A DNA stretch of 64,000 nt from Geodermatophilus sp. DSM 44513. GTDB taxonomy: Bacteria > Actinomycetota > Actinomycetes > Mycobacteriales > Geodermatophilaceae. Positions 48,856 through 51,580 of the stretch are shown here, one piece after another. Location: contig NZ_CP135963.1 in NCBI RefSeq assembly GCF_032460525.1, positions 1,736,001-1,800,000 on the forward strand, read 5' to 3'. The notes under the pieces were generated by a model that worked only from the letters and a program-made list of their open reading frames with translations, was not told where the DNA came from and did not search any database. A program made the position numbers and the translations under genes. The stretch's first letter is position 1, and the number at the start of each line of letters is the position of its first letter.

Positions 48856-49854
48856 CTAGAGCCCGGACAGCAGCCGCACGTGCCAGGTGCGGCTGTGCGC
48901 GGGGTGCGTCGCCCGGCAGGTCAGCGGCGCCGCCTGCTCCGACGGGCGGCTCTCCACCTCGGTGACCACGTCGCCGTCCGGGCCGGCCAGGGTCACCACC
49001 CACCGCTCGACGTCCACCCCGGCCGGGGTCAGCCGGCGCACGTCGCGGGGTCGCAGGTCGTCGACGCCGTACAGCGCGAGCTCCGCCCGGGCGGTGTGCT
49101 GGGCGGCCTGCACCGGCGCGGCCAGCCCCGAGCGGCCGCGCAGCCACGGCAGCGCCACCCGGCCGGCGGCGTGCGCGGCGACCAGCTCGGCGCCGTCGCC
49201 GGGCAGCTGGCCGTAGGCGAAGCCGTGCGGCAGCACGAGCACGTTGCCGGCGAAGCGGCACCCGCCCAGGTGGCTGCACTCCCAGACGTCCTCGGCCGGC
49301 AGGGTCCGGGCCAGCGGCCGCCCGCGCAGCGCGCAGCAGGCGTCGTGCGCACCGTGCGCGCAGACCAGGTAGACCGGCCCGTCGGCGCGCTCGCCCACCG
49401 ACCCGTCCCAGGGTGCGTCGACGAGGTCGGCGTCGCTGCCGCGCACCGACCACCACACGCCCTCGACGCCGGACCGGCCGTCGACGTAGGCCCACCGCCG
49501 CTGCGAGTCGGCCAGCCGGTCGCCGGGACGGCGGATCAGCAGCACCCGCACCCCCTCGGCCCGCGCGCGGTGTGCCAGCCGGGGCGCCACCGCCGGGTCG
49601 AAGCGGGACTGGGTGAGGGCGTCGGTGCCCCACGGGCCGGGCTGCTCGACCAGCAGCCACCGCTGGGCCGGCGAGGCGGTCGCGACACCGGCGTCCCCGC
49701 GGACGAGGGCCTGCACCGAGCACCGGTCCTCGGTGAGCCGGCCCTCGGGCAGCCCGGGGGCCGCGGGGACCCGGCAGAAGTCGGCCGGCGCCGTCACGCC
49801 CGGGGGTCCGGCCGGCTCACGATCCGGTTCCGGGCGCGCGTCCACGCCCCCCAT
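48856..49854 (-). CDS. sucrase/ferredoxin-like (Suc_Fer-like) thioredoxin-fold protein
   Basis: The 332-residue protein has two thioredoxin-fold-like halves, with CAHGAHDACCALRGRPLA and CSHLGGCRFAGN, the cysteine/histidine sites that hold a [2Fe-2S] cluster in such ferredoxins. ATG 49854 lies within the 3' end of the JmjC gene. GTG 49845 (better spaced from GAGG) or 49797 are alternatives. It is the last gene of the peptide-hydroxylase operon and could supply electrons or protect the iron enzyme; that role is inference. Confidence 0.75.
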   Translation of the reverse strand: MGGVDARPEPDREPAGPPGVTAPADFCRVPAAPGLPEGRLTEDRCSVQALVRGDAGVATASPAQRWLLVEQPGPWGTDALTQSRFDPAVAPRLAHRARAEGVRVLLIRRPGDRLADSQRRWAYVDGRSGVEGVWWSVRGSDADLVDAPWDGSVGERADGPVYLVCAHGAHDACCALRGRPLARTLPAEDVWECSHLGGCRFAGNVLVLPHGFAYGQLPGDGAELVAAHAAGRVALPWLRGRSGLAAPVQAAQHTARAELALYGVDDLRPRDVRRLTPAGVDVERWVVTLAGPDGDVVTEVESRPSEQAAPLTCRATHPAHSRTWHVRLLSGL

Positions 49855-51145
49855 CGTCCTCTGCGGTCGCCCCGGGCACCGTGACGATCGACTCGGTCAC
49901 CAGCCGCCGGGCCAGGGTGAGCTGGTCGGCGGCGTCCAGGCCGGGCAGGTCGGCGACCTTGAGCTCGCCGGCGGCCAGCAGCGCGGCCACCGCGGGCCGG
50001 GTCTCGGCCGGCAGCTCCAGCGAGCGCCGCCCGGCGAGCAGCGTGACGCGGCCGTCGGCGGGCTCGCGCAGCTGGCAGCGCAGCCGGCGGCGCAGCTGGA
50101 GCACCGTGTCCGGCGACAACGCCGCTGCCGCGCTGGCCTGCGCCAGCGGTGCGACCGGCTCGGGGCGGACCTGCGACCACGTGCGGGCCCGCAGCCGGTC
50201 GGCGACCTCGGTCGGGTCGACCCGGTCCAGCCAGCCCTTCAGCGCGGCCACCACCGTGTCGACGTCGTCGGCGACGGCAGCGGGGTCGGCGAGGTCGACG
50301 CCCAGCGGCAGGGAGCGGCGCAGCTCGGGGTCCTCGGCGGCCAGCACGCGCACCAGGTCCAGCGCGGACTCCGCGGCCGACCAGCGGGTCACCGAGTGGA
50401 TGCCGACGGTCAGGTGGGCGCTGATGGCCCCCAGGGCGGTGGCCGAGTGCAGGTAGCCGCGGGGCAGGTAGAGGGCGTCACCGGGTCGCAGCACCGCGTC
50501 GATGACCGGTTCGCGCTCGGCGGCGGCGGCCACGGCGGCGGCCCGGTCGCTCCACGGCTGGGTGCGCAGCGGGTCGACGAGCACCGGGGAGTGGATGCGC
50601 CAGTGCTTCTCGCCGGCCACCTGCAGCACGAACACGTCGTGGACGTCGTAGTGCGGGGAGAAGCCGCGCGAGGACGGCGGGGTGACGTAGGCGTTGACCT
50701 GCGTGGGGTGGCCCAGGTCCGCGGCCAGCTGGTCGGCGAACTCGATCAGCGGCGGCCACAGCCGGTGCAGGCCCTGCAGGACGACGGTGCTGCCCTCGGC
50801 GAACAGCCGGGCCACCGAGTCCGAGGAGACCTGGTCGGCGACCTCCGCGCCGGCGCCCCCGGAGGTGGTGAAGCGCTTCGGGTCGACGACCACGCCGTCC
50901 TTGGCGATCCGCAGGAAGGGCGTCCGCAGCCCGCGGCGGGACAGCAGCTCGTCGACCGCGGCGAGGTCGAGCAGGTCGGCGAAGGAGGCGCCGGGGGCCC
51001 CGTTCCCGATGTCCTGGGCGCGGGTCAGCAGCGGCCGACGGGCCCAGTACTCCTCGGCGAAGACCCGCGGCTCCAGTGCGGTGCACCGCCGCAGGGCCGG
51101 CCGGGAGTCCCCCGGCCGGCCCTGGGTGGTGTGGTCCTCGGTCAG
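49817..51145 (-). CDS. JmjC/cupin-4 family 2-oxoglutarate-dependent hydroxylase
   Basis: The protein has 442 residues if it starts at the CTG at 51145. The cupin core holds HYDVHDVFVLQVAGEKHW (HxD iron ligands) and YLPRGYLHSA (distal His), as in the ROX/YcfD ribosomal oxygenases. A dimerisation helix and a winged-helix-like C-terminus follow. The conserved N-terminal part (EPRVFAEEYWARRPLLTR) is encoded upstream of the first ATG/GTG (50893), so translation must begin earlier. The only plausible site is the CTG overlapping the peptide stop (CTGA). Confidence 0.82.
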   Translation of the reverse strand: MTEDHTTQGRPGDSRPALRRCTALEPRVFAEEYWARRPLLTRAQDIGNGAPGASFADLLDLAAVDELLSRRGLRTPFLRIAKDGVVVDPKRFTTSGGAGAEVADQVSSDSVARLFAEGSTVVLQGLHRLWPPLIEFADQLAADLGHPTQVNAYVTPPSSRGFSPHYDVHDVFVLQVAGEKHWRIHSPVLVDPLRTQPWSDRAAAVAAAAEREPVIDAVLRPGDALYLPRGYLHSATALGAISAHLTVGIHSVTRWSAAESALDLVRVLAAEDPELRRSLPLGVDLADPAAVADDVDTVVAALKGWLDRVDPTEVADRLRARTWSQVRPEPVAPLAQASAAAALSPDTVLQLRRRLRCQLREPADGRVTLLAGRRSLELPAETRPAVAALLAAGELKVADLPGLDAADQLTLARRLVTESIVTVPGATAEDDGGRGRAPGTGS

Positions 51146-51411
51146 GCGGAACCGTCCGCGCCGCCGTCGGCACCGCCGTCGGACCCGCCACCGGCCGCGC
51201 CGCCGTCGGCCGGGCCGTGACCCGCGCCGCCGTCGGCACCACCGTCGGCACCGCCGTCGGACCCTCCGCCGACCGCGCCGCCGTCGGCCGGGCCGTGACC
51301 CGCGCCGCCGTCGGCACCGCCGTCGGCGCCACCGTCGGCACCGCCGTCAGCGCCGCCGTCGGCCGGGCCGTGGCCCTCGGTGCTGGTCATGTCGTCGTCG
51401 TCGAGCGCCAT
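51142..51411 (-). CDS. Gly/Asp/Ala-rich repeat peptide, possible hydroxylase substrate
   Basis: The 89-residue peptide starts MALDDDDMTSTE and continues with three imperfect repeats of 25-26 residues, each opening GHGPADGGA and continuing with (A/S)DGG units. It ends DGGADGSA. ATG 51411 has GAGGAG about 6 nt upstream, a better ribosome-binding site than most genes here, so translation is likely. It has no signal peptide, Cys or aromatic residues. The stop overlaps the JmjC gene. JmjC enzymes of this group hydroxylate Arg or His of proteins, and the repeated His is an obvious target, but this is inference. Confidence 0.65.
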   Translation of the reverse strand: MALDDDDMTSTEGHGPADGGADGGADGGADGGADGGAGHGPADGGAVGGGSDGGADGGADGGAGHGPADGGAAGGGSDGGADGGADGSA

Positions 51412-51436
51412 GGGTCTCCTCTTCGGTGCGGGGTCC

Positions 51437-51456
51437 GGGCCGCCGGCCGGCGGCCC
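51437..51456. promoter_or_regulatory. 20-bp perfect palindrome in the leader of the repeat-peptide gene
   Basis: GGGCCGCCGGCCGGCGGCCC lies 26 nt upstream of the ATG at 51411. It could fold as a strong hairpin in the leader RNA or act as a protein-binding site. Confidence 0.5.
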
Positions 51457-51580
51457 GCCGGGCGTTGCTGTACCTCATCCATCTTCCACGCACACTCCCA
51501 CCTCGACCAGCGGGGACGGCCGGTGGGCAACGGCTCGGTCACGGCGCCGCGCCGGGGTGCCGGGGTGGTGCCGAGGGCGC

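Follow-up and report, generated by a model that had tools for sequence, protein, structure and literature searches.

NO66 and MINA53, the human JmjC histidyl hydroxylases, act on ribosomal proteins according to the accessible parts of the literature. They are among the closest described relatives of the system that is considered here, namely an aspartate-repeat peptide gene and an adjoining JmjC oxygenase gene on the minus strand of a 64,000-nucleotide stretch (the window; NZ_CP135963.1, positions 1,736,001 to 1,800,000) of the genome of Geodermatophilus sp. DSM 44513, which is one contig of 4.63 Mb. In contrast to these ribosomal oxygenases, the gene in the window is tied to an Asp-repeat peptide, and its iron site reads HYDVHDVF as opposed to HYDDIEAF. 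In the accessible part of PMC12710340, folds of the recognition element (RRE) of ribosomally synthesised and post-translationally modified peptides (RiPPs) were found fused to PF08007, with bacterial homologues in RiPP-like contexts. The JmjC protein of the window resembles those proteins in combining a JmjC with an RRE-like domain, but the examples given there are fish or algal, the bacterial homologues are at about 30% identity, and that part of the paper names neither an Asp-repeat precursor nor an actinobacterial family. As far as the accessible text of PMC12257519 goes, the JmjC or cupin-like enzymes PbsQ and BpmG hydroxylate ornithine in a biphenomycin-type RiPP precursor. These are also JmjC-related enzymes that modify a RiPP precursor, as is predicted here; however, they act on one ornithine, after other enzymes, in clusters with a multinuclear non-haem iron-dependent oxidase (MNIO), an arginase, a B12-dependent radical S-adenosylmethionine enzyme (B12-rSAM), a protease and a transporter, whereas in the present system no enzyme other than the oxygenase is constant. 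The pair can be regarded as a variant within both the RiPPs and the JmjC hydroxylases. An earlier annotation of the window (the original prediction) knew of no described system of this form; the wider kind, a PF08007 oxygenase with an RRE in a RiPP-like context, is already in print.

In our view, the two genes probably constitute a compact RiPP-like module in which an acidic leader-core peptide would be hydroxylated by a NO66-type oxygenase with an RRE-like domain. The peptide-enzyme pair is well supported, and its chemistry is predicted from the sequence. Its features, in window coordinates, are:

51142..51411, minus strand: Asp-repeat peptide gene, 89 amino acids, candidate precursor and substrate (sequence, family conservation, third-position variation)
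51376..51411, minus strand: conserved acidic leader MALDDDDMTSTE (alignment of 25 peptides; other clades also inspected)
51145..51375, minus strand: peptide core, three repeats opening GHGPADGGA, with DGGA units and Asp mostly every four residues
49817..51145, minus strand: JmjC oxygenase (PF08007), 442 amino acids, NO66-like fold (profile match, alignments)
49862..50119, minus strand: RRE-like winged-helix domain, C-terminal in the JmjC protein

The original prediction had placed three minus-strand genes here, the third encoding a Suc_Fer-like protein, and the reading frames and Pfam matches confirmed them and their positions. The peptide frame opens with the ATG at 51411 and closes with the TGA at 51144-51142; it carries the GHGPADGGA opening three times and has 12 units of the form D[GS]GA, and at the DNA level the repeats form a tandem array with a 78-bp period.

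Co-occurrence of the peptide and the oxygenase

A JmjC match was found in 49 of the 61 near genomes. The best JmjC matches carry the name Geodermatophilus. The homologue set comprised 117 distinct JmjC loci, in which an upstream open reading frame (ORF) was counted as the peptide from three D[GSK]GA units upwards. By JmjC score, it was present in 20/20 loci at 600 bits or more, 30/31 at 380-600 bits and 29/34 at 250-380 bits, and at lower scores in 1/6 (200-250 bits), 0/2 (150-200), 1/21 (100-150) and 0/3 (below 100). The single miss at 380-600 bits (L033) lies at a contig edge, and the single positive at 100-150 bits (L034) is a fragment of a close homologue. Of the loci missed at 250-380 bits, three (L047, L123 and L126) carry two-repeat versions and two (L120 and L121) a different acidic peptide. 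Of those missed at 200-250 bits, L038 lies at a contig edge, and Asp repeats of other kinds were found at L049, L050, L132 and L133, as they were at both loci at 150-200 bits (L137, L138). In a second set of 80 named loci, the peptide (at least two units) was present in 73/73 of those with enough upstream sequence. The original prediction had asked whether a repeat frame precedes the JmjC homologues, and among close homologues it almost always does.

For a whole-genome comparison, 25 peptides, all of which had been found beside JmjC, were aligned (A3) and made into a profile, and this profile and JmjC itself were both searched in the same 296 genomes of the class, with at most 18 peptide and at most five JmjC candidates scored per genome. 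Profile matches were obtained in 44/296 genomes, all within the 49 that had JmjC at 240 bits or more, a line that was set after the lists were seen, while the remaining 247 genomes, 50 of which had weaker JmjC matches, gave none (Fisher p 2.7e-47). The profile matches were found only beside the JmjC enzyme: all 57 were on its strand, from a 19-b overlap to 333 b away from the JmjC match. Concerning the five JmjC genomes that had no profile match, L128 has a DGGA-rich peptide under the profile cut-off, and L120, L121, L132 and L133 have other acidic or Asp-rich ORFs. A phylum-wide sample was positive in 8/246 genomes, all from the same class, and a PF08007 scan gave matches in 10/10 genomes of one distant family and 4/14 control genomes. 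Among the genera that carry the pair are Geodermatophilus, Micromonospora, Actinoplanes, Kribbella, Pseudonocardia, Amycolatopsis and Herbiconiux; on viral contigs, a relative was encoded in none of the 40 candidate stretches.

Features of the peptide family and the enzyme

The leader (approximately residues 1-12) has the consensus M-x-L-x-D-D-D-[IM]-T-T across the family, and the core usually consists of three copies of EGPADGGA-x-PGxH-DGGADGGA. Judging from these sequences, the family has two features of a RiPP, a short encoded precursor that adjoins a putative modifying enzyme and a conserved leader with a more variable core. A residue tally began with 73 peptides, of which 71 were parsed and 65 were used after removing six with unclear starts. 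Asp, Gly and Ala each occurred in 65/65 of these DGGA-type peptides and His was missing from 7/65; in the eight peptides of other types, Asp was present in 8/8 and His in 1/8. The number of Asp residues per peptide was between 10 and 30 in the 65 peptides, and the commonest Asp-Asp spacing past residue 12 was four (506 cases). The core types of the wider family are DGGA, DADTTD and DPAG.

At residues 2-4 of 575 repeat units, which were selected as stretches running from one Asp to another four residues further on, the entropy was 0.08-0.29 bits at codon positions 1 and 2 and 1.21-1.49 bits at the third positions. The crude ratio of nonsynonymous to synonymous differences (pN/pS) of the units, 0.015, is to be read as indicative, because the selection rule fixes the first codon and copies in tandem do not count as independent. 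The codon-position variation points to conservation of the peptide at the protein level, which bears out the purifying selection that the original prediction called for, and the family is a real one. Because of this variation and the co-occurrence counts, the pairing is beyond chance, and a chance open frame in GC-rich DNA was ruled out on the same grounds. In Pfam and NCBIfam the peptide had no family match, with 1/25 members touching an adhesin model at E 0.71, and its repeat sequence was not found in the literature searched, whose scope left out most subscription papers. Two homologues from the same family, P0004 and P0037 (Leifsonia, Amycolatopsis), are named 'BatC protein'; this is no more than a database name, and a literature search on it found nothing.

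The JmjC protein matched PF08007 with an E-value of 4.1e-28 and 97.9 bits (cut-off 22), in agreement with the JmjC/cupin-4 identity that had been proposed originally, and this JmjC_2 match is accompanied by a ribosomal-oxygenase (ROX) architecture. H165, D167 and H233, which we take to be the iron triad HxD...H, were invariant in alignments of 23 and 54 JmjC sequences. The protein can be classed as a NO66-type enzyme with an intact iron-binding triad and a C-terminal domain that appears RRE-like.

Proposed mechanism and alternative explanations

Since both genes occur together so consistently in soil actinobacteria, the peptide is probably the oxygenase's own substrate. The original prediction had left a choice between substrate and scaffold, and a predicted substrate fits better than an inert scaffold because the triad is intact and an RRE-like domain is present. 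In the mechanism that we infer, the small gene would yield an acidic peptide of low complexity, in which a short conserved leader precedes a repetitive core. The RRE-like C-terminal domain would hold the leader, and the JmjC domain, which presumably depends on Fe(II) and 2-oxoglutarate, would hydroxylate many repeat units successively, most likely at C-3 of Asp. The product would be a multiply hydroxylated, metal-binding acidic peptide, and the Suc_Fer-like protein, where present, may reduce the iron centre or supply iron. His or Asp had been proposed as the target; Asp is the better candidate because it occurs in 65/65 and 8/8 peptides, whereas His, which is missing in 7/65 DGGA-type and 7/8 other-type peptides, is not favoured as the main one. 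A bolder, tentative and rather doubtful proposal is an actinomycete-wide RiPP-like class in which one RRE-bearing NO66-type oxygenase would hydroxylate at least 10 Asp residues along a D-G-G-A polymer, giving an intracellular peptide that binds metal (iron or calcium) with no need for a protease or exporter.

Against Asp as the target, the nearest solved enzymes in the accessible literature are histidine hydroxylases. As partners can be linked as tightly as substrates, and as ribosomal proteins are the substrates of the solved ROX relatives, the peptide might instead serve the JmjC enzyme as a dedicated partner, guiding or restraining it as a scaffold, chaperone or inhibitor, while another protein is the substrate. 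We regard this as unlikely: the peptides differ greatly in the number of repeats and in the type of core, which is substrate-like, whereas a folded interface ought to be preserved in a partner, and the enzyme already contains an RRE-like domain. The stop/start overlap, the NO66/YcfD fold and the 5' leader hairpin in Geodermatophilaceae would suit an ordinary ribosomal oxygenase whose expression is regulated or coupled by the small ORF as a cis-acting leader. However, the amino acids are conserved across the class while the codons vary, the distance from profile match to JmjC match ranges from -19 to +333 b, and a close JmjC is present in 49/296 class genomes (any match in 99/296), which would be odd for a ribosome function, making this explanation quite improbable. 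That the peptide is the JmjC N-terminus cut off by a frameshift, in error or programmed, is scarcely credible despite the Geodermatophilaceae JmjC frame being often without an ordinary start and open into the repeats, as the peptide frame stops ahead of the conserved JmjC region in 73/73 loci, at other loci JmjC starts at an overlapping ATG/GTG/TTG (13/45) or has no overlap (24/45), and a slippery site was not seen by eye at the window junction.

With the substrate reading, a family of bacterial NO66-like hydroxylases gains a concrete candidate substrate with a conserved recognition leader, and the C-terminal winged helix of these oxygenases is suggested as a possible peptide-recognition element. 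Should many hydroxylations take place along the repeats, the pair would offer a simple two-gene route to a poly-hydroxylated acidic peptide.

Neighbouring genes

48856..49854, minus strand: Suc_Fer-like protein (PF06999), 332 amino acids, frequent partner (profile match, neighbourhood counts)

The JmjC frame ends (49817) inside the Suc_Fer-like frame (48856-49854). The Suc_Fer-like protein belongs to PF06999 (E 1.1e-14, 55.4 bits; cut-off 34.9) and is presumably of the [2Fe-2S] type. Counting only distinct loci of at least 6 kb with at least 1.2 kb downstream, its gene was next door in 43/43 loci with JmjC scores of at least 500 bits, 61/86 at 250-500, 7/9 at 130-250 and 0/21 below 130. An obligatory three-gene system was ruled out by the 61/86 at 250-500 bits; from the three-gene system of the original prediction, the peptide/JmjC pair remains, with the Suc_Fer-like protein as a common companion.

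The ORFs of 80 loci from outside the home family were clustered crudely. Among the 14 largest clusters, JmjC (75/80), Suc_Fer (33/80) and a frame antisense to JmjC (26/80), which is an artefact, came first. The clustering is insensitive, because only 75/80 JmjC and 33/80 Suc_Fer genes were recovered; no other family occurred in more than 15 loci, and in these unannotated clusters a protease or transporter common to the loci was not apparent. Genes for removing the leader or exporting the product are frequent but not universal among RiPPs, and distant genes could serve here. A defence system was considered, and PADLOC gave no match for JmjC and Suc_Fer.

Phylogeny of the JmjC proteins

The tree was based on 114 JmjC proteins (the 117 minus L033, L034 and L038), with three DGGA and ten other peptide labels assigned by eye. 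A clade of 93 (support 0.90) contained 83 sequences with DGGA-type peptides, seven with other Asp repeats, two with repeat-less acidic peptides (L120, L121) and one without a peptide (L147). Within it, the main subclade of 84 had 82 of the DGGA type, and the sister group of nine (weak support, 0.56) had seven of other types, one DGGA (L125) and L147. The label 'none' was given to 21/114 sequences and is overstated for L143, L144, L148-L152, L158 and L159.

The repeat-less upstream peptides of the close homologues L120 and L121 share DDPEL.GADL.EDQ. Eight distant JmjC homologues (L142-L144, L148-L152) share a second conserved short peptide upstream, of the EVEVEDL.EVTSRD..TAGGDSDGTDSSSDFI type, the start of which resembles other RiPP leaders. 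A third acidic peptide, SVEILDDVRDRY, which contains NDDDLVVSVEILDDVRDRYDAERADPDGSDG, is common to L158 and L159. As these last ten loci, which lie outside the clade, carry other precursor-like peptides, this JmjC_2 branch seems to travel with peptides generally.

Start codon and 5' leader

51143..51145, minus strand: probable CTG start of JmjC, which overlaps the TGA that ends the peptide
51416..51420, minus strand: AGGAG ribosome-binding site of the peptide (read from sequence)
51436..51457, minus strand: 5'-leader hairpin of the mRNA for the peptide, conserved among Geodermatophilaceae

The JmjC frame has no ATG, GTG or TTG before 50893, and a start there would lose 84 residues, many of them conserved. 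Because no usable ATG, GTG or TTG lies upstream of the conserved residues, the CTG at 51145-51143 is the likely start, so that the overlap of the peptide stop with the oxygenase, as predicted originally, is kept as CTGA with this corrected start. The strong ribosome-binding site that had been reported for the peptide is the AGGAG at 51420-51416. In L160-L189, which are Geodermatophilaceae loci (one labelled 'UNVERIFIED_ORG: Bacillus sp.'), a JmjC CTG overlapped the peptide TGA in 27/28 loci, and ATG, GTG and TTG were all missing nearby in 17/28. The other 45 loci had an ATGA/GTGA/TTGA overlap in 13, CTGA in eight and no overlap in 24. The CTGA overlap alone proves nothing, because a GCC-TGA ending yields it for free; the CTG start is argued from the lack of any other start codon.

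In the window, the hairpin was not more stable than shuffled sequences (z -0.14). Across L160-L189, its 9 bp upstream of the peptide were paired in 85.9% of cells, with a covariation of 0.267 compared to 0.141 in shuffles, which related sequences can exceed, and the hairpin sits after a conserved GTGT...GGTA stretch.
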